DNA from: a gamma proteobacterium HTCC5015
GTDB lineage: Bacteria > Pseudomonadota > Gammaproteobacteria > HTCC5015
Assembly: GCA_000155715.1 (NCBI GenBank)
Contig: DS990599.1
Coordinates: 218,419 to 282,418, forward strand
DNA: 64,000 nt
Reading direction: 5' to 3'
Made by a program: the position numbers and the translations under genes. Positions within the stretch are counted from its first letter, which is position 1. Each line of letters starts with the position of its first letter. Of the stretch, positions 9,411-55,693 are shown in pieces. The notes below the pieces were generated by a model. It was not told the DNA's origin. It ran no database searches and saw nothing but the letters and a program-made list of their open reading frames with translations.

Positions 9411-12400
9411 AACGCTTTTTACCAATAGTTAGCAGTTTTATCTTTTTTGTTACAGCCGTTATGTCGGTGCCTGCTTGGGCGGATGACATTGAAATTTTCC
9501 GCGCCTCAGCCACACAGCAGAGCAGCGTCCCCAACTTGCTGATGGTGGTTGATACCTCGGGCAGTATGGGCACAAAAGATGTGACGGTGCCTGCCGAAGC
9601 CTATGACGCCACGAAAACCTATAGTGGCCGCTTTGACACGGGGGATTGGTACGCATTGGTGAATTGTGGGCGCTACGGTTGTGATGCTCACCGCATGGAT
9701 AAATCCTTGAACCAGTGTGATGCGGCCGCCGCTGAATTGGCGAGCAATGGTGTTTTTGATGGCAATATGGCTCGATTGGTCGAGGGTGAAAACAGGACCG
9801 TCACCGAACGAGTTTGTGAAAATGTGTGTACTCGTTGGTTTTGGGGTTTTTGTATTCGCAGCGAGAGACGCTGTGAAGACCAAACCACCACTTATAGTGA
9901 GCCGAGTCGATGGGAGACTATTGAAGAGAATCATAGCAATGATGAGGTCGCCTACGACTGTGAACGCGACGAAGTGGGCAACTCTGTGACGGAGTACGCA
10001 GCGATCAACGGAAGCTTTGATAATTCAACCGGTGGTGATTTGCCCAGTGCGGCGTACACGTCGAGTGAAGACTTTGAAGATCGTTTAAATTGGTCGTCTG
10101 AAGATTACAGCGCGCGCGTTGTGACGGGCAATTACCTGAACTGGCAAGAAAACCACAATGATGAGAAGACGGTCACGCGCCTGAAAGCGGTGCAAAATGT
10201 GCTGCACGATGTCATTGGCGGCATGGATAATGTGAACTTTGGTCTGATGGATTTTTATGGCAAAGGCCGCGTTATCTACCCTGTTAGCTTAGTGAACGAC
10301 GACCGAGTACAGCTTCTGAAAACAGTGGATGACTTGGAGGCCAATGGTGGCACGCCGTTGCAAGAAGCACTGCATGAATCGGGGCGTTACCTGATGGGAG
10401 ACACCTATTATTATGGGGAGCGTGGTGTGTCTAGTGCATTTGAATCGGATGGTAAGACTTACGACAGCCCGATTCTCAATGAGTGTCAAGCGAATGCGGT
10501 TGTGTTACTCACCGATGGTGAGCCGACAGATTATGGAACGGATAATGTCATCCACGATATGATTAAGCCCGTCCATGAGAAAAACGGCACGAGACGCTGT
10601 ACTAGCTATAGGGATAACGGTAACGATTACACGCGCTACTGCTTGCCTGAAATTGCTCAGTTTATGCGCGATTTTGACCTGAGTTCTGGCTTAGACGGCG
10701 ATCAAACGGCACAGACCTTCACGGTTGGCTTTAAGTCGGACCAAGAACTCCTGCAAGATACGGCCTCTAAAGGTCAGGGCAACTACTTCCAGGCGAATGA
10801 CTCTGTCGAGCTGACTCAGGCTCTAAAAGATATTGTTCGCAAGATCAAATCGGAAAGCAGTACCTTTACAACGCCCGGTGTTGCGGTGAACAACTACGGC
10901 CGCCTCACTAACCGGGAAGAAATTTATTACGCCCTTTTCCTACCTAGAGAGAGCGATCGCTGGGGCGGGAATTTGAAGCGTTATAAAATTACCAACGACG
11001 GTACCATTGTCGATCAAGATGGCCAGCCTGCAGTTGATGAGGCGACGGGCTTCTTTAAGGCATCGGCGAGAAGCTACTGGAGTTTGCGCAACGACGGCAA
11101 TGAAGTTGAGAGCGGCGGTGCGGCTTCAAGGCAGAGCGTGCCGCGCAAAGTCTATACTTATACGGATGGCTCTGCGCCTAAAGATGCCTCTCTCGCGATG
11201 ATGCCTTCAGCTCAGCTTGAGCCCGGCAACTCTGATATCGAAGCAGAGGACTTAGGGCTTGGCCCCTCGCAAACGGCACTGAGAACGCGAGTGCTCCGTT
11301 GGGCGCAAGGTTATGACACAGAGGACGACGATGGTGACGGCTCCACGTCTGACGTCTATGGTTACATTGGCGATCCTTTGCATTCATCGCCAACGCTCGT
11401 GACGTACTCACAAACTGCCACTGGGTCGAATTCGACGATTTTCTTTGGCAGCAATGAAGGTTTTGTCCACGGCATTGATGCCGAAACGGGGGCAGAACAG
11501 TTTGCCTTTATGCCGAAAGAGTTGCTGGGTAATCTCAATGCATATCGCGCCGATAAAGATGCGGTAGTGGTGGATACCAAGCCTTACGGTATGGATGCAG
11601 AGATAGGCGTCTGGGTGAACGACCTCAACCAAGACGGTTCGTTGCATACCAGTGGCGGCTCAATTCAAGGTGCGGGTACTAGCGAGCAGGAGAGTGCCTA
11701 TATCTATGCGGGTATGCGTCGAGGTGGCCGAAGCTACTATGCGCTGGATGTGACAATGCCCGATGCGCCTGTACTCAAGTGGCATATCTCAGGGGATGAC
11801 AGCCACTATCTATCGTGGTCGCAACCTGCGGCGTTTAAAGAGCTCGGCCAAACTTGGTCCAAGCCATTGGTCTCTCTTGTGAAATGGGGTGGCGACGATG
11901 GCGATCCAAGAGTCGTGCTGTTCTTTACTGGTGGCTACGATGAAGATCAAGACGATGCCACCGATGTTGTCGCTGATGATGTCGGTCGAGCGCTTTATAT
12001 GGTTGATGCAGAAACCGGCGAACTGTTGTGGTCTGCTGGTCCCACGGCGGCCCACGACTTGCAGCTATCTGGCATGCAGTACAGTTTCCCTGCGACACCA
12101 GCAGTGGTCGATACGACGGGTGACGGTTATGTGAATATGGTCGTTGCGCCTGATGTAGGGGGTAACGTATGGCGCTTTGACATCGATAATGAAAACGAGG
12201 GTAGTGAAGATGTGAAGGTGACTGGCGGTAAAATTGCCGAGTTGAGCCAATCGGGCGAGCCTGTCAAGTTCTTTGCTAGCCCCGATGTGTCGATCATTCA
12301 GAAAGAAGGGGTTACGCCCTTCTTGTCCATCGCTTTGGGTTCAGGCGCTCGTCCCAGCCCGCTGAGCAAGAAGGTGCAAGATGCCTTCTTCATGATCAAG

Positions 12401-13000
12401 CAGAAGGACTTTACAAGTGCGCCTAAAGATAGCTCAGGAAAAGTAGCGTATGACACGATAAGAAAGTCTGATCTTTATAATTCTTCATCGCTCAATATGG
12501 ATGCATTAAGCACGACTGAGCAAGCGAAGGTATTGTCAGATATCAGCAAAGCTAATGGCTGGTATATGGACTATGATGTAGACGGTGAAAAATCATTAGG
12601 TGCATCACTCACCTTTAATGGTCAAATCATTTTTACCAGCTTTTCACCGGGTGGTTCAGGTACCGGTTGTGGTCCAGATACGGGTACCAATAGACTCTAT
12701 ATTCGCGATGTGTTGACGGGTACGACCACTATCCAGACCAACAACGGCACGCTCGACAACCAAGAGCTGCAGCAACCAGGTATTGCGCCAGAGCCTACGG
12801 TCTTATTCCTGCGCAAAGAGGAAGATGGCAAGGTCACTCAAGTGCCGCAGATCATTGTTGGTACGGAAGTGATTAAGGATCAAGATGGTTGTGGCATCGC
12901 TGATGCTTCCTGTGGTAACGGAAGCAATAATGGAAATACGAAAGACAGAGATAGCAGTAACACAAGCTCTAAAGTTCAGTTCTGGTTTGAGGAGCGCTAG
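9407..13000 (+). CDS. pilY1: Type IV pilus tip adhesin PilY1
   Basis: PilY1 is the large tip-associated protein that, with minor pilins, primes pilus assembly and mediates adhesion and surface sensing. The 1197 residues start with a signal peptide ending VPAWA. A von Willebrand A domain follows with the MIDAS motif DTSGSMG near residue 50 and a second element LLTDGEPT near 365. The domain carries many cysteines in residues 85-190. The C-terminal half (about 640-1150) is the PilY1 beta-propeller, with repeated blades such as YIGDPLHSSPTLV and FFGSNEGFVHGID. Acidic loops (DTEDDDGDGS, DLNQDGS) are possible calcium sites. It sits between the small exported protein and pilE, the Pseudomonas order. 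Confidence 0.94.
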   Translation: MKRFLPIVSSFIFFVTAVMSVPAWADDIEIFRASATQQSSVPNLLMVVDTSGSMGTKDVTVPAEAYDATKTYSGRFDTGDWYALVNCGRYGCDAHRMDKSLNQCDAAAAELASNGVFDGNMARLVEGENRTVTERVCENVCTRWFWGFCIRSERRCEDQTTTYSEPSRWETIEENHSNDEVAYDCERDEVGNSVTEYAAINGSFDNSTGGDLPSAAYTSSEDFEDRLNWSSEDYSARVVTGNYLNWQENHNDEKTVTRLKAVQNVLHDVIGGMDNVNFGLMDFYGKGRVIYPVSLVNDDRVQLLKTVDDLEANGGTPLQEALHESGRYLMGDTYYYGERGVSSAFESDGKTYDSPILNECQANAVVLLTDGEPTDYGTDNVIHDMIKPVHEKNGTRRCTSYRDNGNDYTRYCLPEIAQFMRDFDLSSGLDGDQTAQTFTVGFKSDQELLQDTASKGQGNYFQANDSVELTQALKDIVRKIKSESSTFTTPGVAVNNYGRLTNREEIYYALFLPRESDRWGGNLKRYKITNDGTIVDQDGQPAVDEATGFFKASARSYWSLRNDGNEVESGGAASRQSVPRKVYTYTDGSAPKDASLAMMPSAQLEPGNSDIEAEDLGLGPSQTALRTRVLRWAQGYDTEDDDGDGSTSDVYGYIGDPLHSSPTLVTYSQTATGSNSTIFFGSNEGFVHGIDAETGAEQFAFMPKELLGNLNAYRADKDAVVVDTKPYGMDAEIGVWVNDLNQDGSLHTSGGSIQGAGTSEQESAYIYAGMRRGGRSYYALDVTMPDAPVLKWHISGDDSHYLSWSQPAAFKELGQTWSKPLVSLVKWGGDDGDPRVVLFFTGGYDEDQDDATDVVADDVGRALYMVDAETGELLWSAGPTAAHDLQLSGMQYSFPATPAVVDTTGDGYVNMVVAPDVGGNVWRFDIDNENEGSEDVKVTGGKIAELSQSGEPVKFFASPDVSIIQKEGVTPFLSIALGSGARPSPLSKKVQDAFFMIKQKDFTSAPKDSSGKVAYDTIRKSDLYNSSSLNMDALSTTEQAKVLSDISKANGWYMDYDVDGEKSLGASLTFNGQIIFTSFSPGGSGTGCGPDTGTNRLYIRDVLTGTTTIQTNNGTLDNQELQQPGIAPEPTVLFLRKEEDGKVTQVPQIIVGTEVIKDQDGCGIADASCGNGSNNGNTKDRDSSNTSSKVQFWFEER

Positions 13001-39026: not shown

Positions 39027-39288
39027 GTGCCCCTCTCACCTAGCCCCTCTCCCGCAAGGGGAGAGGGGGATGTGGTCGGGCGACACCGAGGCTTTTGATT
39101 CAGCGTCACCCCGAACTTGATTGGGAATCTCCGCATAAAAGTACTGGCGACGATTTTTTCAAACGCTCTGGGCGCTCGGTGTTCTCTGTGGCTAAGCGAG
39201 AAAATACAAAACGTCTTCTCCCGTGTGGCAATTCAAGGTTATTTCCACGATAATTGCGCCCTCACGAATCCAGCACCTCGGAGTCTCT
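39027..39288. repeat. Short repeats upstream of tkt
   Basis: The region contains a CCCCTCTCCCGC/GGGGAGAGGGG inverted repeat at about 39042-39070 that can act as a terminator-like hairpin, one copy of the short hairpin repeat (CACCCCGAACTTGATTGGGA) at about 39108-39132, and one end of the element seen after ribF at about 39175-39195. The tkt ribosome-binding site GGAG lies at about 39280. Confidence 0.5.
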
Positions 39289-41283
39289 ATGCCCTCTCGC
39301 CGTGAACTTGCCAACGCTATTCGCGCCCTCAGTATGGATGCTGTTCAAAAAGCCAATTCCGGTCACCCCGGTGCCCCCATGGGCATGGCGGACATCGCCG
39401 AAGTGCTGTGGAACGACTATTTACAACACAACCCCAGCAATCCGCAGTGGTGGGATCGCGACCGTTTTGTGCTGTCCAACGGCCACGGTTCGATGTTGAT
39501 CTACTCGCTGCTACACCTGAGCGGTTACGACCTGCCGATCAGCGAACTGAAAAACTTCCGACAGTTGCACTCGAAAACGCCGGGTCACCCCGAGTACGGC
39601 TATGCACCAGGCGTGGAAACGACCACGGGGCCGCTGGGTCAGGGCATCAGCAATGCGGTGGGCATGGCGCTGGCGGAGAAAACGCTGGCCGCTCAGTTTA
39701 ACCGCGATGGCCACGAAGTCGTCGATCACTACACCTACTGCTTCCTCGGCGATGGCTGTTTGATGGAAGGTATCTCCCACGAGGTGAGCTCCTTGGCGGG
39801 CACGCTGGGTCTGGGCAAATTGATCGCCTTTTACGACGACAACGGCATTTCTATCGATGGCGAAGTCGAGGGCTGGTTTACCGACGATACCGCCAAGCGC
39901 TTTGAATCCTACGGCTGGCAGGTGATTCCCGCTGTCGATGGCCACGATGCCGACGCGATCAAAGCCGCCATTGAGCAGGCTCGCGCCGAAAGCGATAAGC
40001 CCACTTTGATTTGCTGCAAAACGGTCATCGGGTTTGGCTCGCCCAATAAGCAGGGCAAAGAAGACTGCCACGGTGCCGCGCTGGGTGAAGACGAAGTGGC
40101 GCTGGCGCGGGAAACGCTGGGCTGGAATTACGGCCCGTTTGAAATTCCCGATGAGCACTATGCCGCTTGGAGCGCCCGCGAAAAAGGCCAAGAAGCGGAA
40201 CAAAATTGGCAGAAATCCCTAGATGCGTATCGAAGTGCTCACCCCGAGCTGGCCGCCGAGTTTGAGCGCCGCATGAAAGGCGAGCTGCCCGAGAACTGGG
40301 CGGCGGACGCCATGGCCTATATTCGCTCGGTGATTGATCAGGGCGAAACCATCGCCTCGCGCAAGGCCTCGCAAAACACCTTGAACGCGTTTGGCCCGAT
40401 GTTGCCCGAGTTGCTCGGCGGCTCGGCGGATTTGGCCGGTTCCAATCTGACGATTTGGCAGGGCTCTAAAGGCATTAGCGCCGACGATGCCAGCGGCAAC
40501 TATGTGTACTACGGCGTGCGCGAGTTTGGCATGGCGGCGATCATGAACGGCGCCGCCTTGCACGGTGGCTTTATCCCCTACGGCGCCACGTTTTTAATGT
40601 TCTCTGAGTACGCCCGCAATGCCTTGCGCATGGCGGCGCTGATGAAAGTGCAAAGCCTGTTCGTATTCACCCACGATTCCATCGGCTTGGGCGAAGATGG
40701 CCCCACGCACCAACCCGTCGAGCAATTGGCGACTCTGCGCTTAATGCCCAATATGGTGAATTGGCGCCCCTGTGATGCGGTGGAGTCGGCAGTGGCGTGG
40801 AAGCGCGCCATCGAGCGCACGGATGGCCCCACCAGTTTGGTGTTTTCGCGCCAGGGCTTGCCCCACCAAGCGCGCGATGCCGAGGCCGTTGCCAATATCG
40901 CTCGCGGTGGCTACACGCTGGAAGACTGTGAGGGTCAACCCGAGGCCATTGTGATTGCCACCGGCTCGGAGGTGGGCATCGCCCGCGAGGCAGTTCAGGC
41001 CCTTAAAGCCAAAGGCAAAGCGGTTCGACTCGTTTCTATGCCTTCGACGGATGTTTTTGAGCAGCAAGACGCCGCCTACCGCGACAGCATTTTGCCGCCC
41101 TCGGTAACGCGCCGCGTCTCTGTAGAGGCGGGCGCCACGGCGGGCTGGTATCGCTACATCGGCTTTGATGGCGTTGCCGTGGGTTTGGATACCTTTGGTG
41201 AATCCGCCCCCGCGGGCGATTTGTTCAAACATTTTGGTTTGACCGCGGATGCCGTGGAAGCCGCTGTGGAGTCGCTCTTTTAA
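39289..41283 (+). CDS. tkt: Transketolase
   Basis: Transketolase moves two-carbon units between sugar phosphates in the pentose phosphate pathway, using thiamine diphosphate. The 664 residues begin [40 protein letters not shown] holds the first catalytic His, [14 protein letters not shown] and [12 protein letters not shown] (TPP-binding GDG) follow, and the C-terminal part has [23 protein letters not shown] 39289 has GGAG upstream; an ATG at 39223 would add 22 residues not seen in the family. It is the first gene of tkt-epd-pgk-fba and ends three bases before the next ATG-less gap, i.e. epd starts immediately. Confidence 0.97.
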
Positions 41284-42330
41284 ATGAGCTTGCGGCTCGC
41301 CATTAACGGCTACGGCCGCATTGGCCGCTGCGTGCTGCGCGCCCTGCACGAATCGCCCCTGCGCGATCAGTTGCAGGTAGTGGCGATCAACGAGCCCGCC
41401 GATTTAAAAAGCATTGAGCATCTGACCAAGTACGATACGACTCACGGTCGCTTCCAAGGAGAGGTTCAGCAGGGCGATGGCGCCTTGATTGTCGATGGTC
41501 GATCTATCGACGTTACGCACCATACGGACATTGCCGATTTGCCCTGGGCCGAGCGCGACATCGATGTGGTGCTTGAGTGCAGCGGTGTCTGGGATGAGCG
41601 CACCGATTTAGAAGGCCACTTGGCGGCGGGTGCCAAGCGCGTTTTGCTGTCTCAGCCAGGTGCCTTTGAAATGCCCGCCATTGTCTACGGTGTCAATCAC
41701 CATTTGTTGGAACAGAACGCGAGTATTGCCACCAACGCCAGCTGCACCACGAACGGCATCGTGCCGGTGATCGATGTGTTGCACCGAGCTTTTGGCATTG
41801 TGTCGGGTACGATTACTACGATTCACTCCGCCATGAACGACCAGCCGGTGTTGGACGCCTACCACCGCAAAGATCTGCGAAAAACCCGCGCGGCAGGGCA
41901 GTCGATTATTCCCGTGCACACGGGGCTGGCCTCTGGAGTGGGGCGAATACTGCCCGAGCTCGATGGCCGCTTTGTGGCGCGTGCTCTGCGCGTGCCCACG
42001 CCCAATGTGTCGGCTATGCAGCTCACCGTCCAGCTCGACAAAGACGCGGACACCGAAGCACTGAACAACGTGCTGTTAGAGGCCAGTGAGCAAGGCCCAT
42101 TAGCGGGCTTGTTGGGCTACACCGAAGAGCCTCTCGCCTCTTGCGATTTTAACCACGACCCGCGCTCTGGCGTGGTCGACGCCGGCCAGAGTCGAGTCAG
42201 CGGCCAACTGGCGACCGTGTTGGTCTGGTTCGATAACGAATGGGGCTACGCCAACCGCATGCTCGATGTGGTCGCGGCGTGGCACGGCCTCCCCACCTCT
42301 GTACAACCTCAAGAAAGCAAAGGACATTAA
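41284..42330 (+). CDS. epd: Erythrose-4-phosphate dehydrogenase (GAPDH family)
   Basis: Epd oxidises erythrose 4-phosphate to 4-phosphoerythronate in pyridoxal phosphate synthesis. The 348 residues have the NAD fold [15 protein letters not shown], the catalytic ASCTTN, and the Epd-type sequence [17 protein letters not shown] with [12 protein letters not shown]-like continuation (here [19 protein letters not shown]), plus [12 protein letters not shown] and [13 protein letters not shown]. The HSAMNDQ segment and the tkt-epd-pgk order favour Epd over GapA. Some such enzymes also accept glyceraldehyde 3-phosphate, so a glycolytic or gluconeogenic role is possible. It starts at the base after the tkt stop. 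Confidence 0.88.
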
Positions 42331-42335
42331 ACACC

Positions 42336-43520
42336 ATGAGTCAGTCTGTTCTCCGCATGAGCGACTTAGACCTAGCCGGTAAGCGCGTTTTAATTCGCGA
42401 AGATTTAAATGTGCCGACAAAAGATGGCGCGGTGACTTCCGACGCCCGTTTGCGCGCCGCCCTGCCCACATTAGAAGCCGCCATCGCGCAAGGCGCGAAA
42501 GTGATGGTGATGTCCCACCTCGGTCGCCCTAAAGAGGGCGAGTACGATGAGAGTTTGTCGCTGCAGCCGGTCGCCAACTATCTATCGGACAAGCTAGGCC
42601 GCGAGGTGAAGCTGGTTAAAAACTGGCAAAGTGGCCTTGAGCTTGAAGACGGCGAGTTGGTCTTGCTGGAAAATGTCCGTTTCAACATCGGTGAGAAAAA
42701 GGACGAAGAGGGGTTGGCCAAAGCCTACGCCGCACTGTGCGATGTGTTTGTTATGGATGCCTTTGGCACGGCTCACCGCGCCCAGGCATCGACCCATGGT
42801 GTGGCCAAATATGCGCCGACCGCGTGCGCGGGGCCACTGTTGGCAGCTGAGCTCGATGCGTTGGGCAAAGCGCTGGATAACCCCGCCCGCCCCATGGTGG
42901 CGATTGTTGGTGGCAGCAAGGTATCGACCAAACTCACGGTGCTGGAGTCGTTGTCGAACAAAGTGGATCAATTGATCGTCGGCGGCGGTATCGCCAATAC
43001 GTTTATTGCCGCCGAGGGCCACCCCGTTGGCAATTCTCTGTACGAAGCCGATTTGGTGTGCGAGGCCACCAAGCTGAGCACTCAGGCTAAGGAGCAGGGC
43101 GGTAATATTCCCGTTCCCGTCGATGTGGTGACAGGGACCGAGTTCTCCGCCGAGGCGGTCGGTCGCACTTGTTCGGTCGACGACGTGGCGGACGACGAGA
43201 TGATTTTGGACATCGGTCCGCAAAGTCGCGCCGAGCTGGCAGAAATTTTAAAGTCCGCGGGCACGATTGTTTGGAATGGTCCTGTTGGCGTATTTGAGTT
43301 CGACCAGTTTGGCGGCGGCACCGAGGCTTTAGCCGCTGCGATTGGCGCCTCTGATGCCTTCACTATTGCCGGTGGAGGCGATACCCTTGCGGCCATTGAT
43401 AAGTACGGCGTCGCCGACAAGATTTCCTATATTTCCACTGGGGGTGGTGCCTTCCTCGAGTTTCTCGAGGGCAAGACGCTACCCGCTGTAGCCGTGTTAC
43501 AAGAGCGCGCCCAAGCGTAG
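42336..43520 (+). CDS. pgk: Phosphoglycerate kinase
   Basis: Pgk interconverts 1,3-bisphosphoglycerate and 3-phosphoglycerate with ATP formation. The 394 residues contain [12 protein letters not shown] near residue 15, [54 protein letters not shown] and the nucleotide-binding WNGPVGVFE and [16 protein letters not shown] 42336 lies five bases after the epd stop and has AAAGGA upstream; the longer frame from 42240 overlaps epd and is not used. It is part of the tkt-epd-pgk-fba operon. Confidence 0.97.
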
Positions 43521-43584
43521 CGGCGCGAACCAATTTTGAAACGATTGACTCGATCGACTATTTAAAGACAAGACGGAGCAAGCC

Positions 43585-44646
43585 ATGCTGATTTCCATGC
43601 GCCAAATGTTGGACCACGCCGCCGAGCAGGGCTACGGAGTGCCCGCATTTAATGTGAACAACTTAGAGCAGATGCACTCCATCATGATGGCGGCGGATAA
43701 AACCGATTCGCCCGTGATTGTTCAGGCGTCTGCGGGCGCTCGTAAATATGCCGGTGCGCCTTTTCTGCGCCACTTAATGCAGGCGGCGACTGAGCAGTGG
43801 CCGCACATCCCCGTGGCGGTTCACCAAGATCACGGCACCAGCCCCGCTGTGTGTCAGCGTTCGATTCAGCTGGGTTTTACCTCGGTGATGATGGATGGCT
43901 CCTTGGGTGAAGATGGCAAAACGCCGACCAGCTACGAGTACAATGTCGACGTCACTCGACGCGCGGTGGAAATGGCGCACGCCTGCGGCGTCTCTGTGGA
44001 AGGGGAACTGGGTTGCCTTGGCTCGCTGGAAACGGGGCAAGCCGGTGAAGAGGATGGCATTGGTGCTGAGGGCACGCTGAGCCACGATCAAATGCTGACC
44101 GATCCCGAAGAAGCGGCGGACTTTGTTCAGAAAACGCAAGTAGACGCATTGGCTATTGCCATTGGTACCAGCCACGGCGCCTACAAGTTCACACGCCCTC
44201 CCACGGGCGACATCTTGGCGATTGAGCGCATCAAAGCCATTCACGCGCGCATTCCCGATACCCACTTGGTGATGCACGGTTCCTCCTCCGTGCCTCAGGA
44301 CTGGTTGAAAATCATCAACGAGTACGGTGGCGATTTGGGGGAAACCTACGGCGTGCCCGTGGAAGAGATTCAAGAGGGCATTAAGCACGGCGTGCGCAAA
44401 GTGAACATCGATACGGATTTGCGCATGGCGTCTACGGGTTCGATTCGCAAGTTCCTAGCTGAAAACCCCAAAGAGTTCGACCCGCGCAAATATCTCGCCG
44501 TCGCGCGCGATGCGATGCGCGATATTTGTATCGATCGCTACGAAGCCTTTGGTACGGCGGGCAACGCCTCCAAGCTCAAGCCCATTTCACTCGAGGAAAT
44601 GGTGTCGTTGTACGACAATGGCAGCCTCGACCCCAAAATTAAATAA
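43585..44646 (+). CDS. fba: Class II fructose-bisphosphate aldolase
   Basis: This zinc enzyme cleaves or forms fructose 1,6-bisphosphate. The 353 residues match the Calvin-cycle subtype of class II aldolases: [13 protein letters not shown] near the start, the zinc and catalytic site [11 protein letters not shown] near residue 80, [15 protein letters not shown] and [12 protein letters not shown] further zinc ligands, and [10 protein letters not shown] for phosphate binding. It follows pgk by 64 bp, and pyruvate kinase, which lies between them in some pseudomonads, is absent. A terminator follows. Confidence 0.96.
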
Positions 44647-46816: not shown

Positions 46817-49219
46817 TTGCAGAAGGATTTACTCAAGAGCGAATCTTGGTACCGAAGCATTTCCCCCATAATGGAATGGGATGCCACGGTGCGCAGCTGT
46901 CTTCCCCTGTTGCTGCTGGTGGGGCTGTTCAGCAGCTATATTGCCTGGGGTTATTGGCTACCGTACTGGAACGGTGGTTACTCGCCTTTTAATCTAACGG
47001 TTTTTGAATCGCTGTTGCCCACGGCGACTTATTTGACGATGGGTGCCGCCGTTTTGCTCGGTGTTGGCGGCTTGATCTATTGGCGTCGCTGGCCGTCTAT
47101 GTGGTTTCAGCACTGTGCGGCTAATTACTATGGCTTGGTGTTGGTTTGGGGCGGTTATCTGACAGGGGGCTTGAGTCTGGCGTCGGGTGTCGCACTCATC
47201 GGCGCGCCGTTAGTGGGGTTTTTATTGCTTGAGCGCCGCGTCGTAGTGGTGGCGTTTTTGGTGTCGTTTAGCACTCTGCTCTACTTTAACTTTGCCAGTG
47301 CCTTCGATTGGATGCCCTATGCGCCGCTTATGGTGGAGCCTCGCGATCGCGCTAGTGTTTTAGCTTGGATCAATACCCATTTGTTCTTTGCCGCGCCGCA
47401 TATTTTCTTTCAGGTGGCGGTGGCTGCGTTAATTTTAGGGCAATGGCGCCTGCGCGAAGCAGAGGCCATTCGCCAGTCGTTGACGGATGCGCTCACGGGG
47501 ATTCACAACCGGCGCAGCCTATTTCAAATTCTCGATCGGCAAGTGGCCCACGCCCACAAGCAGGAGGAGCCACTGGCGGTGGCGCTGCTGGATCTCGATC
47601 ATTTTAAGCGCATTAACGATGAGTATGGCCACCCTACGGGGGATGCTGCCCTGAAGGCGGCGGCAGCTGTATTAGAGAAGGGCTTGTCCGAGGGCGATAG
47701 CGTGGGGCGCTTTGGTGGCGAGGAGTTCATGTTGGTGATGCCAAACTGCTCTCGTAGCCAGTGCCAGCAGCGTTGTGAGGCGCTACGGAAAAGCCTCGAA
47801 CGCGTCGAGTGCTATTCGGAAAACGGCGAGGCGATTGCCTTGCGTGGCAGCTTTGGCGTGGTTTGGTATAGCGGTCAGAGCCAGCGCCCTTTGGTCAGTG
47901 ATGGCGTCGTTCAAGTTGCTGATGCAGCGCTTTATCGCGCGAAAAATGCAGGGCGGAATCAGGTGGTGTTACAAGACATTGACGATGCATTGCTGGCAGC
48001 AATGCCAGTCCGGCAGCAGCGCCCCGCGAGTCGATCAATAGCGCGGCGTTTTAGCGACATCAGGCTCGGTGAGTTTCTTCGCATCAGCACTTGGCGGCAG
48101 GTGATTCAGTCGATCCTCGAATGGTCGCCTGTCAGCAAAGCCTGTTTTGTACTACTGACGTGGATTTACATGGCGGTCAATGCCTTTGGCTGGCTCCTGT
48201 ATCTTACCCAGCGTCAAGATGCCGACGAGATCATCAATTTAAGTGTTGCTGAGCAGATGCTCTACATCTCTGCGGGAGCGGTGCTTTTGAGCGTCATTCT
48301 GCTGGCGGTAGGGCGCTGGCTCAGCCGGGTTAACCGCTACGCCTATTGGTTTCAATCGCTGGTTTTACACCTCTATGGACAGGGCTTGGTGGGCTTTGGT
48401 TACTTCCTCGGCATACTTTATATCCCTACGGGGGCGATGTTGCTGTGCTCGCCAGTGATTGGCTTTTTGATTATTGAGCGCCGCGTGTTGTTGCAGGTGT
48501 TTAGTGGCTGCCTCTTATCGGTGGTGGGACTGGCCTATTTGTCGGCGTTTGAGGTGTTGCCCTATGCGCCTCTGATTTCTGTCGAGGGCACGGCGTGGCA
48601 GCTGAGCTCGCCGTTTTGGGTTGCCAGCTCGTACTTTTTTATTACGTTCTTAAGCCTGTTGGCCTTCGTGTTGATGGGCTATGTGGTAAGCCGCTGGAGC
48701 TTGCGCGAAGCTGAGGTGCGTCAGCTGAGTTTGGTCGATCCGCTCACCCAAATTCATAACCGCTTAAGCATTATGCAAGTGCTCGATCAAGCACTAAGTC
48801 AACATAGACGCGAGGGCAGTCCAATCGCAGTGGTTATGCTGGATATCGATCACTTTAAAGCGATTAACGACAACTGGGGTCACCCCGTGGGCGACCGCAT
48901 ACTCACGAGTGCGGCGAGCGTACTGGCTAATAACCTGCGCGAATTTGACGAGATTGGACGCTACGGCGGCGAAGAGTTTTTGTTGGTACTACAGGGCACG
49001 GATGTCGACGGCGCCGTGGTCATGGCCGAGCGCTGTCGCCAAAGCTTGGCCACGATTCAAGTATTGAGCGACGAGGGCGCGTCTATTGGGGTCAGCGCCA
49101 GTTTCGGTGTCGCCGCCAGCCAAGCGCAACAGCCGACAGATATCGAAGCGTTGATTCAGCGGGCGGATAGAGCGCTCTACCGCGCCAAAGAAAAAGGCCG
49201 CAATCGGGTCGAGCAGTGA
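46817..49219 (+). CDS. Tandem membrane-GGDEF protein: two diguanylate cyclase modules in one chain
   Basis: An 800-residue protein made of two similar halves offset by about 417 residues. Each half has about six membrane helices (residues 25-215 and 440-630) followed by a GGDEF domain (225-385 and 640-800). Matching segments include LTDALTGIHNRRSLFQILD and LVDPLTQIHNRLSIMQVLD, LLDLDHFKRIND and MLDIDHFKAIND. Both active sites read GGEEF (residues 300 and 717) and look catalytic, so c-di-GMP synthesis is expected. The inhibitory I-site RxxD is present in the second module (REFD) but not in the first (SEGD). The start is TTG 46817; ATG 46871 is an alternative. Internal duplication and fusion of a whole cyclase is unusual. 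Confidence 0.88.
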   Translation: MQKDLLKSESWYRSISPIMEWDATVRSCLPLLLLVGLFSSYIAWGYWLPYWNGGYSPFNLTVFESLLPTATYLTMGAAVLLGVGGLIYWRRWPSMWFQHCAANYYGLVLVWGGYLTGGLSLASGVALIGAPLVGFLLLERRVVVVAFLVSFSTLLYFNFASAFDWMPYAPLMVEPRDRASVLAWINTHLFFAAPHIFFQVAVAALILGQWRLREAEAIRQSLTDALTGIHNRRSLFQILDRQVAHAHKQEEPLAVALLDLDHFKRINDEYGHPTGDAALKAAAAVLEKGLSEGDSVGRFGGEEFMLVMPNCSRSQCQQRCEALRKSLERVECYSENGEAIALRGSFGVVWYSGQSQRPLVSDGVVQVADAALYRAKNAGRNQVVLQDIDDALLAAMPVRQQRPASRSIARRFSDIRLGEFLRISTWRQVIQSILEWSPVSKACFVLLTWIYMAVNAFGWLLYLTQRQDADEIINLSVAEQMLYISAGAVLLSVILLAVGRWLSRVNRYAYWFQSLVLHLYGQGLVGFGYFLGILYIPTGAMLLCSPVIGFLIIERRVLLQVFSGCLLSVVGLAYLSAFEVLPYAPLISVEGTAWQLSSPFWVASSYFFITFLSLLAFVLMGYVVSRWSLREAEVRQLSLVDPLTQIHNRLSIMQVLDQALSQHRREGSPIAVVMLDIDHFKAINDNWGHPVGDRILTSAASVLANNLREFDEIGRYGGEEFLLVLQGTDVDGAVVMAERCRQSLATIQVLSDEGASIGVSASFGVAASQAQQPTDIEALIQRADRALYRAKEKGRNRVEQ

Positions 49220-50346: not shown

Positions 50347-50655
50347 GACTTGAGTGCCCTAGAGGCAAAAAAGTAGTACCTAAACATCCGCCCGTAGCTC
50401 AGCTGGGCGGGGCTGGATTAGCAAAAGCACGGCTTTTGCCCAGCACCGCGCCGTGAGCGTACTCGCGAACGGCAGGAACGGATGGCTGGATTAGCAAGAG
50501 CACGGCTTTTGCCCAGCACCGCGCCGTGAGCGTATTCGCGAACGGCTGGACCCGAGCTTGTCTCGGGGAGCGTCGCGCAATGCCTTAGCATTGCAGACTT
50601 GAGTGCCCTAGAGGCAAAAAAGTAGTACCTAAACATCCGCCCGTAGCTCAGCTGG
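50347..50655 (+). repeat. Duplicated tRNA-Arg 5' region with intervening 73-bp repeats
   Basis: A 60-bp segment is present twice, at 50347-50406 and 50596-50655 (spacing 249). It comprises the upstream sequence from GACTTGAGTGCCCTAGAGGC onward plus the first 19 bases of tRNA-Arg. Only the second copy continues as a full tRNA; the first stops after GCTCAGCTGG, leaving a truncated tRNA. Between them lie two 73-bp tandem copies (50411-50483 and from 50484) that each contain the hairpin GCAAAAGC-ACG-GCTTTTGC (one mismatch in the second), followed by two smaller hairpins near 50555 and 50575. Confidence 0.8.
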
Positions 50656-50713
50656 ATAGAGCGTCGCCCTCCGGAGGCGAAGGTCTCAGGTTCGAATCCT
50701 GACGGGCGGGCCA
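50637..50713 (+). tRNA. tRNA-Arg (anticodon CCG)
   Basis: A 77-nt tRNA with encoded CCA. Acceptor stem CCGCCCG/CGGGCGG with discriminator G, D-stem GCTC/GAGC, anticodon stem TCGCC/GGCGA around CTCCGGA (anticodon CCG), T-stem with the TTCGAAT loop. It reads CGG codons. A truncated 5' duplicate lies 249 bp upstream, and the gene at 50744 begins 30 bp downstream. Confidence 0.95.
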
Positions 50714-50743: not shown

Positions 50744-51433
50744 ATGCCTAGCTCCCGACCAGAGACAATGCCCCTGTCTGCGGCGGCCGCGCGCATTACT
50801 CAGCTCACAGGAGCGATGAAAGCGCTGGTGCCGCGCACGGCTCACACGGGCTTTGCCGACCGCTTGGGTGAGCTGTTTGGCATTGGTAACAGCATGGATT
50901 TAGACCTCGCGTTGGCCGCGCCTCAGTGGACTCCATCAGAGAGTGAGCCGCGCTCCGCAAGCGAGTGGCAGCAGCGCCTCGACCAGCTTTGTAAGGAGTG
51001 TCAGCAGCAGTGGCGCGAGGCCGTGGCTGAGTTTGAGCTGCCCGAGCACCCCGACCGCGGCTCGACGCCCTACCAGCAGTTTTATGTTGCACAGCAGCGC
51101 CCCCTTGTTGTGGGCGCACAGCAATTGCGTCACGGCTTGCGCCAACAGCTGGCGGGCCAAAGCGAGAACTTGGCGCAGCTCGCTCAGCTCGATGAATTGT
51201 TTGAACAGACGGTGGGGCATTTTAGCGGGCGAGGCTTTGCTGCATTGGGCCGTGTTTTAAAACGCCGCTACCAGCAGCAGCTAGAGCGCTACAGCGAAGA
51301 GCGGGCCGAACAGTGGCATCGAGCGTGGATGCGAGAAGTCCACTTGCTCCTGCTGGCAGAGTTGCCCCTGCGCATAAAGCCCCTTGAAGGGTTACTGGAC
51401 ACATTGAAAGACGAGGAAAGATCGAACGCATGA
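50744..51433 (+). CDS. DUF3348-like protein, first gene of the ion-channel operon
   Basis: A 229-residue protein with no signal peptide or membrane helix. From memory it fits the DUF3348 family, found in many proteobacteria before a DUF802/ZorA-like membrane gene; I could not check a profile. It is helical and charged, with TGAMKALVPRTAHTGFADRLGELF near the start and a Gln/Arg-rich middle. It starts at ATG 50744, 30 bp after tRNA-Arg, and overlaps the next gene by four bases, so it is translationally coupled. Its role is unknown; it may be a cytoplasmic partner of the membrane channel. Confidence 0.8.
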   Translation: MPSSRPETMPLSAAAARITQLTGAMKALVPRTAHTGFADRLGELFGIGNSMDLDLALAAPQWTPSESEPRSASEWQQRLDQLCKECQQQWREAVAEFELPEHPDRGSTPYQQFYVAQQRPLVVGAQQLRHGLRQQLAGQSENLAQLAQLDELFEQTVGHFSGRGFAALGRVLKRRYQQQLERYSEERAEQWHRAWMREVHLLLLAELPLRIKPLEGLLDTLKDEERSNA

Positions 51434-53097
51434 ACCGCTTTCTCTATGTATTAGCATTGCTACTCGGCGCGGGCGTTATCGCTTGGATTGGCCTAGGATT
51501 TTTTGGCACCGATCACTTGGCCCTAGTCGTTACCACGGTTATTGCGATTGCCTACGCTGTGGGCATCGGCGAGCTACGTCAATTTCGTCACGCCAATGAT
51601 TGCCTTGAACAGCAGTTGCAGCAAGCGCCCGCGGTAGATGCCGTCGACGCTTGGTTGGCCAAATTGCCCGCCGCACTACAGCCGCCCGTTTACCAGCGCC
51701 TACAGGGTCGCCCCGTGGCACTGCCCGGACCTATGATGACGCCCTATTTGTTGGGGCTGTTGGTGATGTTGGGTTTGCTCGGCACGTTTGCCGGCATGAT
51801 TGTGACACTGGGCGGCGCCGCTACGGCACTCGATAGCAGCAGTGAGCTCGACGATATCCGCAGCGCGCTAGCCGCGCCCATTGCGGGCCTGAGTTTGGCC
51901 TTTGGCACGTCCATTGCCGGTGTTGCCGCCTCGGCGGCACTGGGCTTGGCTAGCGCCTTGAGCCGCCGCCAGCGCGTGTTTCTCGGTCGCTATATCGACG
52001 CTCTCGCGAGCCGCTCTCTACAGAGTTTAAACCCCGAGTACCAACGCCGTCAGACCGATGCGGCTCTGGAACAACAGGCCGCGCAAATGCCGCAGCTGCT
52101 TGAGCGTATGCAAAGTGTGGCGGATAGCGTGGAATCTATGGGGCGGGGCATCGGTGAAACGCTGGAGCAAAAGCAACAAGACTTTCATCAAAGCACCGCT
52201 CAACACTATCAAGCGCTGGCGGATTCCGTGGCCAGTAGTTTGCGGCAAAATGTGCAGGACAGCGGTACGGCCTTGAGCGAGAGCTTAACGCCCTTTTTCG
52301 AACGCACTATGGCGAGCTGGCGGGAAGCGGCCGAACAGCAACAGCGCCAGCTGCTAGAGCAGGCCAATGGCAGCCTGTTAAACGCCAGCGAAGCCTTTAA
52401 GCACAATAGTCAAGCTGCGAGTCAGCACTGGCGCGATGGTGTCGACGCTTTGATGCAGCAACTCAAACAGCATTTTACCGAGCTCGAAGCCAATACCGCT
52501 GAGCAGTTGGGACAGTTGGGGCAGGCGCTGGAAGCGCCCGTGGGACACATGTTAGAGCGCGCCGCCGAGGCGCCGCAGGCGGCTAGTGATGTGATTGAAG
52601 CCCTGCGACAGCGATATGTCGATACCGAGCAACAGGAAAACCGCCTCCTCGAAGAGCGCCAGCGATTGGCTAGCGAGCTGGAGCAGCTTATTGGCGAGCA
52701 GCGCGAGGCCGCCCAAGCTCAGCAGCGCGCACTGGAGGAGTTTGTCGATGGTGCGGGTCAAACCATGGCCGATGTGCAGCAGTTGTTCCGCCAGCAAATG
52801 GAGCAACAGGGCGAGCGCCTCAGCGAAGCCGTTGATGAAGTACGCGGCGGCGGCAGTGAAATTCTCAGCTTGAGCGATGCGCTGCAGGCGGCGCTGGAGC
52901 AATTCAGTCAAGCCAACCAAGCCCTGCTCGATGGCTTTAGCCGCATCGAAGAGCAGCTCGGCGCCACGCAACAGCGCAGCGATGAGCAACTGGCCTACTA
53001 TGTCGAGCAAGCGCGCGAGGTGATTGACTACAGCACGCAATCGCAACACGAAGTGGTCGATAGCTTGCGCGCCTTGGCCAAGGGTAAGGCGTCCTGA
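51430..53097 (+). CDS. ZorA/MotA/ExbB-like proton channel subunit with long coiled-coil tail
   Basis: A 555-residue membrane protein. Two helices at about 3-24 and 28-48 are followed by the MotA/TolQ/ExbB core pair at about 104-134 (GLLVMLGLLGTFAGMIVTLG) and 150-175 (GLSLAFGTSIAGVAASAALG). From about 190 to the end there is a long Gln- and Glu-rich coiled coil, the architecture of ZorA, whose tail reaches into the cytoplasm. I recall the tail as DUF802-like. With the next gene it should form a 5:2-type ion-driven stator. It overlaps both neighbours (four bases and one base). Confidence 0.85.
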   Translation: MNRFLYVLALLLGAGVIAWIGLGFFGTDHLALVVTTVIAIAYAVGIGELRQFRHANDCLEQQLQQAPAVDAVDAWLAKLPAALQPPVYQRLQGRPVALPGPMMTPYLLGLLVMLGLLGTFAGMIVTLGGAATALDSSSELDDIRSALAAPIAGLSLAFGTSIAGVAASAALGLASALSRRQRVFLGRYIDALASRSLQSLNPEYQRRQTDAALEQQAAQMPQLLERMQSVADSVESMGRGIGETLEQKQQDFHQSTAQHYQALADSVASSLRQNVQDSGTALSESLTPFFERTMASWREAAEQQQRQLLEQANGSLLNASEAFKHNSQAASQHWRDGVDALMQQLKQHFTELEANTAEQLGQLGQALEAPVGHMLERAAEAPQAASDVIEALRQRYVDTEQQENRLLEERQRLASELEQLIGEQREAAQAQQRALEEFVDGAGQTMADVQQLFRQQMEQQGERLSEAVDEVRGGGSEILSLSDALQAALEQFSQANQALLDGFSRIEEQLGATQQRSDEQLAYYVEQAREVIDYSTQSQHEVVDSLRALAKGKAS

Positions 53098-53711
53098 TGG
53101 ACGAGCTGCAAGAACTCGATGGCCAGTCGGCACCCGTTTGGGCGATTTTTTCCGATTTGATGGCCGCCCTAGTGGGGATACTCGCCCTCATTTTGGTTTG
53201 GGTGATCGCCATCCAGTTTGAGCTCACTCAAGATCTGGAGGCCGAGAAGCAGCGGCGCCAAGCGCTAGAGCGCGCCCTCGCCGATCCCCTCGCCAGTGGA
53301 CGCATCACTTTTCAAGACGGTCGTATCGGCATTAGTGGTAATTTATTGTTTCGCATCAATTCGGCGGACCTGCAAAGCGGGGGCAACCAAGTGCTGCAAG
53401 ATCTCGCCGAGCCGCTGAAGGTGTATCTCAGCCAGCACGACGAATTGCTGATGGTGAGTGGTTTTACCGATGATTTGTCGCTGCACGAGGACAACCTCTA
53501 CCGCGACAACTGGGGGCTCTCCGCCCAGCGGGCACTCACTGTCACGCGCACCTTGGTAGAGCAGGGGCTGCCGCAAGATCGCCTCTTCGCCGCCGCCTTT
53601 GGCGCCAATGCGCCCACCGTACCCAACCGCGATGCCGCCTCGCGGGCTAAAAACCGACGCGTTGAAATCTCCACCGTGCCGCGGCGGGAACACGAGGCCG
53701 CAGTGGACTGA
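53097..53711 (+). CDS. ZorB/MotB-like OmpA-domain stator subunit
   Basis: A 204-residue protein with one N-terminal membrane helix (about residues 14-43), in which Asp20 in IFSDLMAALVG sits where MotB and ZorB have their ion-carrying Asp. A short linker with heptads is followed by an OmpA-like peptidoglycan-binding domain (about 85-195): MVSGFTDD, NWGLSAQRALTVTRTLV, AFGANAPTVPN and KNRRVEIS. It is the natural partner of the preceding channel subunit; the pair would couple ion flow to movement of the long cytoplasmic tail. Confidence 0.9.
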   Translation: MDELQELDGQSAPVWAIFSDLMAALVGILALILVWVIAIQFELTQDLEAEKQRRQALERALADPLASGRITFQDGRIGISGNLLFRINSADLQSGGNQVLQDLAEPLKVYLSQHDELLMVSGFTDDLSLHEDNLYRDNWGLSAQRALTVTRTLVEQGLPQDRLFAAAFGANAPTVPNRDAASRAKNRRVEISTVPRREHEAAVD

Positions 53712-54286
53712 TGGACAGCCAGCAGCTCCAGCGCGAACTACAGCAGCTCGACGAACAGGGCGCGGCGCGACAACATCCCGCGCGCTTTCGCTTTGTGCAA
53801 AGCCTGTCTCAGCGTTTGCTGCACAGTGCGAGGGTGGCGCCCCGCCAGTGGCAGCGCTTAGAAAAACATTTGGCAACACTGCGCAATGCTATGGCATCGG
53901 AAGCTGCCTCAAAACAGCCGCAAGAGCACTCCCCATCGCCCTTAAAGGCACTGGTTGAGGCGCTCAGTCAGCGAGCGCCTCGCACCGTTAGCCCGTCTCA
54001 AAACGGCGATGAGTTCGAGGGCTTAATGCGCCGTGTTTTTGGTGCAGAGCACGCCCAGCGAGAACTGCCTGCCCTCGCTCATCTACGCAAAAGTCGCAGC
54101 GAGCACTACATCGAACAACAAATCCAGCGCGCCATTGACGAAACCCCCGAAGAGGCTGGTCCGCTCAACAGCCGCCGCCTCGTCACCCGCGCCGTGCGCC
54201 AGCTCGACAAAACCGCCCCCCACTACCTGCGCCACTTCGCCGCCTACATCGACACTCTCGCCTGGCTGGAAAAACAGGGTAAGTAA
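53711..54286 (+). CDS. DUF2894-like protein of the ion-channel operon
   Basis: A 191-residue soluble protein that I recall as DUF2894, again without a profile check. It starts MDSQQLQRELQQLDEQGAAR and overlaps the OmpA gene by one base; the middle is Ser/Ala-rich and the C-terminal half is helical, with LRKSRSEHYIEQQIQRAID and APHYLRHFAAYIDTLAWLE. It is the last gene of a tightly packed four-gene operon; DUF3348 and DUF2894 flank the channel pair here. Function unknown. Confidence 0.8.
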   Translation: MDSQQLQRELQQLDEQGAARQHPARFRFVQSLSQRLLHSARVAPRQWQRLEKHLATLRNAMASEAASKQPQEHSPSPLKALVEALSQRAPRTVSPSQNGDEFEGLMRRVFGAEHAQRELPALAHLRKSRSEHYIEQQIQRAIDETPEEAGPLNSRRLVTRAVRQLDKTAPHYLRHFAAYIDTLAWLEKQGK

Positions 54287-54402
54287 TTGCCAACACGCGG
54301 CATGGCCAACGAGTCGCCAGTTGGCTGAGTGGCTTGGGCTGGTCAGTCTGTTCAAAAGCCTTTAGATTGAATACAACTTCGATTGAATGGATTGAAATCA
54401 CA

Positions 54403-54765
54403 GTGAGTTGTATTTTTTGCGAACAAGACGCGGTACTTGAAAACGACCTCGCCTATTGTCGCGTCGATCGCTTTCCCGTGAGTCCTGGCCATTTGTTAAT
54501 TATCCCCAAGCGCCATGCCGAGGATTGGTTCGATTTAAGCAATGCTGAAAAAGTCGCCATCAATGACCTACTGGAACAGGGCAAGCAATGGATTGAAAAA
54601 ACGCATCGCCCCGATGGTTACAACATCGGTATGAACTGCGGTGCCGCTGCGGGGCAAACGGTATTTCACATGCACTGCCACCTGATTCCCCGATACGATG
54701 GCGACACAAAAGAGCCCAAAGGCGGAGTGCGTGGCGTGATCCCTGAGAAAATGCAATATGAATGA
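54403..54765 (+). CDS. HIT-family hydrolase
   Basis: A 120-residue histidine-triad protein. The triad is near the C-terminus: TVFHMHCHLIPRY, i.e. HxHxHxx with Cys in the middle position. CIFCEQD and LIIPKRHAEDWFDL are typical for the family. The start is placed at GTG 54403, which gives the usual CIFC N-terminus; a longer frame from 54334 is less likely. HIT enzymes hydrolyse nucleoside phosphoramidates, dinucleoside polyphosphates or adenylylated intermediates. Its stop overlaps the HNH gene start by eight bases, so the two are co-translated. Confidence 0.9.
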   Translation: MSCIFCEQDAVLENDLAYCRVDRFPVSPGHLLIIPKRHAEDWFDLSNAEKVAINDLLEQGKQWIEKTHRPDGYNIGMNCGAAAGQTVFHMHCHLIPRYDGDTKEPKGGVRGVIPEKMQYE

Positions 54766-55693
54766 TTTGGATTATTACCAGAGGGCTTTTCAGTCACTGC
54801 GCGTGAACCGCGGCGGTGGCGAGCCGAGCCCGCATAAGCCCTGTATGTTGTTGGCAGTGATCGATTACTTTGATGCGACACCGCAGGCAGAGAACCGACT
54901 GAGTTTTTCACCGAACCTGCTAGAACGTTATCGTTCCTATTTCGATCTCGCTGCGGGAGAAAGGGATCGTCCCAACCCGTATATGCCCTTTTTTCACTTG
55001 AAGTCGGAAGGCTTTTGGCAATTAAAAGCGTTACCGAATCGAGAGGAGGCCTTGGGTCGGGTTAAAACGGCAACATCGCCAAAGGATATTCGAGAAAACA
55101 TCGACTATGCGTATCTCGAAGAGGCACTTTTCGAGATACTGAAAAATAAAGAGAACAGGCAACGCCTAACGCGTGTATTGATAGACCATTGGTTTGACCG
55201 CACGCAAGGCGAGATAGAACGCATGCTGGATAAAAATCGGCAAGTGAATCAGTACGAAATGCTGCTTCGCTCACCTGAGTCCGAGCGAAAAGTAGCCTTA
55301 CAGAGACCCGAATACCTGGTACGCAATGCCGCTTTTCGCCGTGTGGTCTTAGAGGCTTATGACTACCGATGCGCGGCAACCGGTACGCGCTTGATATTAC
55401 CCGATGAGTCGGTATTAGTTGAGGCGGCACATCTCGAAGAATTTCGCATTAGAGGCAACGACGAGCCACAAAACGGTATAGCTTTAAGTAAAGACATTCA
55501 CTGGGTAATGGATCGCGGGTTTATCGCTCCCGGCCCCGATTACAAATGGCACATTTCCAAGCAAATCGACAAGCGCTTGCCCGACAATCAAAAACTAATC
55601 GAACTCGATGGCACGGATATTATTTTGCCTAAGCAGCAAAGTTTTTGGCCGAAAGAGGCCTATCTAAAGCATCGTTTGGATGGCTTGCTTTAA
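54758..55693 (+). CDS. HNH endonuclease with a putative DNA-sulfur-binding-like N-terminal domain
   Basis: A 311-residue nuclease. The HNH domain occupies about 195-265: CAATGTRL, then VEAAHLEEF with the first His, NGIALSKDIHWVMDRGFI with the Asn and the third His. The N-terminal 150 residues (PHKPCMLLAVIDYFD, LSFSPNLLERYRSYFD, PFFHLKSEGFW) resemble the sulfur-binding domain of ScoMcrA-type restriction enzymes, by my pattern recognition only. Such enzymes cut modified or foreign DNA, so a type IV restriction role is plausible. It is translationally coupled to the HIT gene and its stop overlaps tonB by three bases. No dnd phosphorothioation genes are nearby. Confidence 0.82.
   Translation: MNDLDYYQRAFQSLRVNRGGGEPSPHKPCMLLAVIDYFDATPQAENRLSFSPNLLERYRSYFDLAAGERDRPNPYMPFFHLKSEGFWQLKALPNREEALGRVKTATSPKDIRENIDYAYLEEALFEILKNKENRQRLTRVLIDHWFDRTQGEIERMLDKNRQVNQYEMLLRSPESERKVALQRPEYLVRNAAFRRVVLEAYDYRCAATGTRLILPDESVLVEAAHLEEFRIRGNDEPQNGIALSKDIHWVMDRGFIAPGPDYKWHISKQIDKRLPDNQKLIELDGTDIILPKQQSFWPKEAYLKHRLDGLL

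Follow-up and report, generated by a model that had tools for sequence, protein, structure and literature searches.

Four open reading frames on the forward strand occupy positions 50744-54286 of a 64,000-nucleotide stretch of the gammaproteobacterium HTCC5015 genome (the window), with successive overlaps of 4, 1, and 1 bases and no interruption of any frame. The first gene (50744..51433) encodes a 229-residue protein that matches the Pfam family DUF3348 (PF11828, 1.3e-25) and the PADLOC model ZorG3 (2e-35). It is followed by zorA (51430..53097), coding for a 555-residue channel subunit with a long cytoplasmic helical tail (PADLOC ZorA3, 8e-181), and by zorB (53097..53711), coding for a 204-residue protein made of an N-terminal membrane helix and an OmpA-like domain (PADLOC ZorB3, 4e-91). 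The last gene (53711..54286) encodes a 191-residue protein that matches DUF2894 (PF11445, 5.1e-35) and PADLOC ZorF3 (1e-42). All four genes are, therefore, matched by the Zorya type III models of PADLOC, and the first, third, and fourth also exceed the Pfam cut-offs for DUF3348, OmpA, and DUF2894, respectively. These assignments bear out the four overlapping genes and the two soluble partners proposed in the initial annotation, which was made from sequence alone. The names of the soluble partners are swapped between sources: ZorF denotes the DUF3348 protein in the text of the paper (PMC8565338), while ZorG denotes it in the PADLOC table (PDLC00652-00658).

Neither of the Pfam channel families MotA_ExbB (PF01618, searched at E 0.01) and DUF802 matches the channel protein (51430-53097), for which Pfam returns only weak coiled-coil-type matches and NCBIfam only subthreshold matches to ZorA. 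A profile of the ZorA family, however, matches the solved ZorA-like chain 8vvn_C (4e-11), and together with the PADLOC ZorA3 and ZorB3 matches, this agrees with the ZorAB-type stator build that had been claimed for the membrane pair. ZorB also matches NF006547, an NCBIfam entry named "hypothetical protein," with 296 bits against a cut-off of 194. Its OmpA-like domain (residues 84 to 187; 53346..53657; PF00691, 3.1e-16) presumably binds peptidoglycan. Asp20 (codon at 53154..53156), the presumed ion-carrying residue, is unchanged in 72 of 72 operons, that of the window included. Thus, the predicted combination of a long helical tail on the channel protein and an OmpA subunit bearing Asp20 was found as described.

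An operon of this composition has a published precedent. Zorya type III was named in the 2021 PADLOC paper, in which 6,401 cases were counted (PMC8565338), and is defined as a ZorAB pair together with flanking DUF3348 and DUF2894 proteins (PMC8565338, PMC11890865). The window holds the ZorA-like and ZorB-like proteins as well as both flanking partners. Because all four genes match models of a system named in 2021, the earlier reading of an undescribed machine fails. The evidence for phage defense comes from a single operon of Stenotrophomonas nitritireducens, which reduced phage plaquing when expressed from a plasmid in Escherichia coli and protected against some phages (PMC8565338). That operon and the one in the window comprise the same four gene families.

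The better-characterized types I (ZorABCD) and II (ZorABE) have in common with the window the ZorA/ZorB stator, the long tail, and the OmpA-type domain of ZorB. A 2025 study solved both as 5:2 ZorA/ZorB ion-driven motors whose long tail lies in the cytoplasm, and found that the tail, ion flow, and binding to peptidoglycan all matter for defense (PMC11890865). In contrast to types I and II, the window has two small helical proteins, in which no nuclease-like fold was found, in place of ZorC, ZorD, or ZorE. None of these three effectors was detected when the products of the operon and of the neighboring HIT and HNH genes (six proteins) were scanned with PADLOC models, nor did any appear among the matches listed for 20 neighbor proteins of the operon, so their reported absence stands. 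The locus thus lacks the ZorC and ZorD that mark type I and the ZorE that marks type II; the downstream HNH protein matches a generic HNH model, not that of ZorE. Sequence comparisons strongly support the identification of the locus as a Zorya type III operon that is genuine, divergent, and to all appearances intact, and we consider it highly probable that it is a complete anti-phage system.

To place this copy among its relatives, genome contigs were scanned with ZorB, yielding 69 loci. Sixty-six of these are close (ZorB identity of 56 to 74%) and belong to Marinobacter, Alcanivorax/Alloalcanivorax, and a few other Gammaproteobacteria. The order DUF3348-ZorA-ZorB-DUF2894 is kept in 63/63 whole operons from these contigs and in 9/9 further operons, six found within the window's class and three carried by large plasmids of Betaproteobacteria. 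Overlaps are kept as well, with 4 bases between the DUF3348 gene and zorA in 62/63 operons and 1 base between zorA and zorB in 58/63. Conservation of gene order and overlaps across genera indicates that the operon is more than a chance arrangement. The proteins in the window reach at most 48% (ZorA), 74% (ZorB), 33% (DUF3348), and 38% (DUF2894) identity to the relatives compared, a set that excludes the phage-tested Stenotrophomonas operon; for the DUF3348 and DUF2894 proteins, mean identity to relatives is about 27 to 33%. In a tree of ZorA plus ZorB, the longest branch is that of the window, which falls among Marinobacter and Alcanivorax sequences.

The distribution of the operon bears on whether defense is its primary function. 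A rival explanation is that the operon encodes a housekeeping-type, ion-driven envelope machine that is vertically inherited in some lineages, and that its action on phages is a secondary one or results from its expression in E. coli. In favor of this, Zorya type III occurs in 32/46 genomes of the Alcanivorax family (30/30 among the first listed) and, in many Marinobacter, at one constant position in the chromosome, adjoining cbpA and the fba-pgk-gap-tkt cluster. Plasmid copies are few (27/72,556), all of them on large replicons of Betaproteobacteria, and phage records gave only generic OmpA matches. Furthermore, among 13 Marinobacter in which fba, gap, and tkt adjoin the operon, ZorB distances follow those of the core neighbors (rho of 0.73, matched or beaten in 0/2000 permutations), with lower correlations for DUF2894 (0.55), ZorA (0.51), and DUF3348 (0.32). 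Such tracking indicates that the Marinobacter operon is vertically inherited while its soluble partners change fast, and vertical inheritance, together with the 30/30 Alcanivorax-family genomes, is less typical of mobile defense genes. The cluster tkt-gap-pgk-fba is also present in the window (39223-44646), where about 6 kb separate it from the operon downstream, in an orientation relative to zor that differs from that in the many Marinobacter where it adjoins Zorya type III.

Nevertheless, several observations run against a housekeeping function. The operon is missing from 63/100 genomes of the genus Marinobacter (37/100 have it) and is patchy in the window's class, being present in 7/369 genomes and absent from 362. 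Within the window's family, it was found in 1/4 genomes, although two of the other three are incomplete. Mean distances among the 13 Marinobacter are 0.16 for ZorB, 0.27 for ZorA, 0.37 for DUF3348, and 0.47 for DUF2894, compared with 0.083 for core genes; DUF3348 and DUF2894 proteins thus diverge 4 to 6 times faster than adjacent core genes, as expected in an arms race. Considering also the published phage protection (PMC8565338), we judge an envelope machine with incidental anti-phage activity to be improbable.

Flanking genes raise the question of where the operon ends and how it arrived. A HIT gene (54373-54765) and an HNH gene that overlaps it (54758-55693) are co-oriented with zor and start about 87 and 472 bases, respectively, after the DUF2894 gene, confirming the adjacency noted in the initial annotation. 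The HNH protein resembles a phosphorothioated-DNA restriction family (118 bits, below the cut-off of 180), and the ZorE protein of type II systems is itself a nickase of the HNH type (PMC11890865). One could, therefore, imagine a six-gene system in which HNH, with HIT, serves as nuclease effector in place of ZorE. However, the linkage between HIT-HNH and the operon did not hold up: homologues of HIT and HNH, like those of ExbB, ExbD, and TonB, stand beside no zor locus outside the window's genome. Among the 369 genomes of the class, DUF3348 and HNH were each found in seven, and the two sets meet in the window's genome alone; HIT lies directly beside HNH in 2/6 HNH relatives, both from DUF3348-free genomes. 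Given also that HNH has no match to the ZorE model, HIT-HNH was rejected as a part of the system and may be a system of its own, and a six-gene arrangement appears very unlikely.

The least credible alternative, an ExbBD/TolQR/MotAB-type transporter or flagellar stator of ordinary function, draws on the likeness of the OmpA domain to those of MotB proteins and on a true ExbB-ExbD-TonB set 1.4 kb from the operon, but it is almost certainly wrong, as evidenced by the top matches of the pair to ZorA and ZorB type III models, by the presence of DUF3348 and DUF2894 in every operon extracted, and by the missing MotA_ExbB match in a channel whose neighboring ExbB matches that family at 1e-30. The outcome that the initial annotation had named as refuting its reading, assignment to an ordinary ExbBD, TolQR, or MotAB pair, did not arise. 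ExbBD-TonB, TolQR, and MotAB are distant stator kin of the window pair, from which they differ in partners and in the long tail of its channel protein, which has no family-level match to them.

Upstream of the operon lies a tRNA-Arg(CCG) gene (50637-50713). The 5' duplicate reported beside it is present as a perfect 60-nt repeat (50347-50406 and 50596-50655) that covers the upstream region and reaches 19 nt into the tRNA; a 72-nt tandem duplication (93%) lies between the copies, and the stretch 50347-50655 is unique in the genome. Both features are thus real, but linkage to a tRNA does not extend to other loci, since a scan of 25 related zor loci turned up no tRNA-Arg. Another genome of the same family has a cytochrome c gene beside tRNA-Arg(CCG) and no zor genes after the tRNA, which marks the tRNA as a synteny break. 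From this single comparison, it is plausible that zor was acquired next to tRNA-Arg. Against integration at the tRNA, the genome gave no further copy of the tRNA 3' end that could serve as an att-like repeat, and no integrase family was among the matches listed for the scanned neighbors.

A point against a role in defense is that the operon lies in no obvious defense island: metabolic and regulatory genes predominate among its neighbors in the window, and likewise in most flanks at other loci. Matches to MzaA and Csa3 near the window probably reflect a sigma factor and general regulators. Among 91 proteins that flank 12 loci, PADLOC matches were largely to AAA-ATPase-type models that picked out the same two proteins. 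At one locus (L068), an AAA ATPase gene (11283-12464) begins 12 bases past the DUF2894 gene, and members of this family occur close to the operon at 11 loci, most of them in one Marinobacter group. A separate observation from the window is an 800-residue protein (46817-49219) with two GGDEF domains, apparently produced by internal duplication of a membrane-GGDEF unit.

The AlphaFold2 model of the DUF3348 protein contains only helices, with a confident C-terminal bundle from about residue 70 (pLDDT of 81, pTM of 0.72), while that of the DUF2894 protein has two all-helical domains joined by a weak linker (pLDDT of 83, pTM of 0.44). By sequence, neither has a convincing solved homologue in the PDB, and a PDB fold search with both models returned nothing at E 0.001. 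A second look gave best fold Z scores of 6.4 for DUF2894 and 9.0 for DUF3348, the latter to a dynamin-like stalk; scores of this size are usual for common helical bundles. No nuclease-like fold was seen in either model, of which residues 1 to 60 of DUF3348 and 70 to 120 of DUF2894 (both approximate) are poorly predicted. On the basis of these models, infection would more likely be stopped by proteins that bind or sequester phage DNA, or by ions leaking through ZorAB, than by cleavage by DUF3348 or DUF2894. The DUF2894 protein in the window is basic (pI of 10.1), and in 71/73 sequences the C-terminal 75 residues of DUF2894 have a pI above 8.

In the 72-operon alignment, the most conserved block of ZorA comprises the channel helices (TM3/TM4-like; residues 101 to 180; 51730..51969), in which T119, T126, T160, S161, and S168 are unchanged in 72/72 operons, including that of the window. 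The mean frequency of the top residue is 0.79 to 0.92 in the channel block, 0.76 to 0.81 in a second, tail block (361 to 420), and 0.49 to 0.66 over the remaining tail, yet it rises to 0.88 at the tip (521 to 540). The tip carries a near-invariant motif, R-x-DEQL-x-YYV-x-QARE-x-I...S...Q (residues 516 to 539; 52975..53046). The tail is acidic (median pI of 4.8), and its middle grows and shrinks, so that ZorA ranges from 503 to 885 residues across operons; the window ZorA is short, at 555 residues against a median of 687. In one Marinobacter contig (L008, 8202-10001), ZorA seems frameshifted or truncated, at 314 residues. A docking site would be expected to look like this, with a fixed motif at the end of a spacer whose length is free, and the tip may bind the soluble partners.

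We propose a working mechanism along these lines. Phage entry would disturb the envelope, whereupon ZorB would grip peptidoglycan and open an ion path via Asp20. Ion flow would rotate the ZorA ring, and the tail would relay rotation to its tip, where DUF3348 and/or DUF2894 might dock and halt infection. The most speculative step is that the basic C-terminal domain of DUF2894 could dock on the acidic ZorA tail or on phage DNA. What goes further than a ZorAB stator that is driven by ions and signals along its tail is our inference. Tentatively, one may go further and picture motor motion passing along a tail of freely variable length to a single fixed docking tip, with helical, noncatalytic DUF2894 and DUF3348 adaptors acting there without a dedicated nuclease, and the machine having become a stable chromosomal trait, instead of a mobile defense gene, in Alcanivorax-like bacteria and some Marinobacter, but this combination as a whole is possible rather than probable.

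The window copy is an unusually divergent case of Zorya type III, and because that system has been known since 2021 (PMC8565338), the discovery value of the locus is ordinary. Details added here include a ZorA tail that varies in length while its tip is nearly as conserved as the channel. Zorya type III looks to be the least understood of the types, and the literature searched assigns no mechanism to its two soluble partners. A conserved tip on a length-variable tail, together with two all-helical partners, thus provides a concrete hypothesis of how the motor might signal to its partners.
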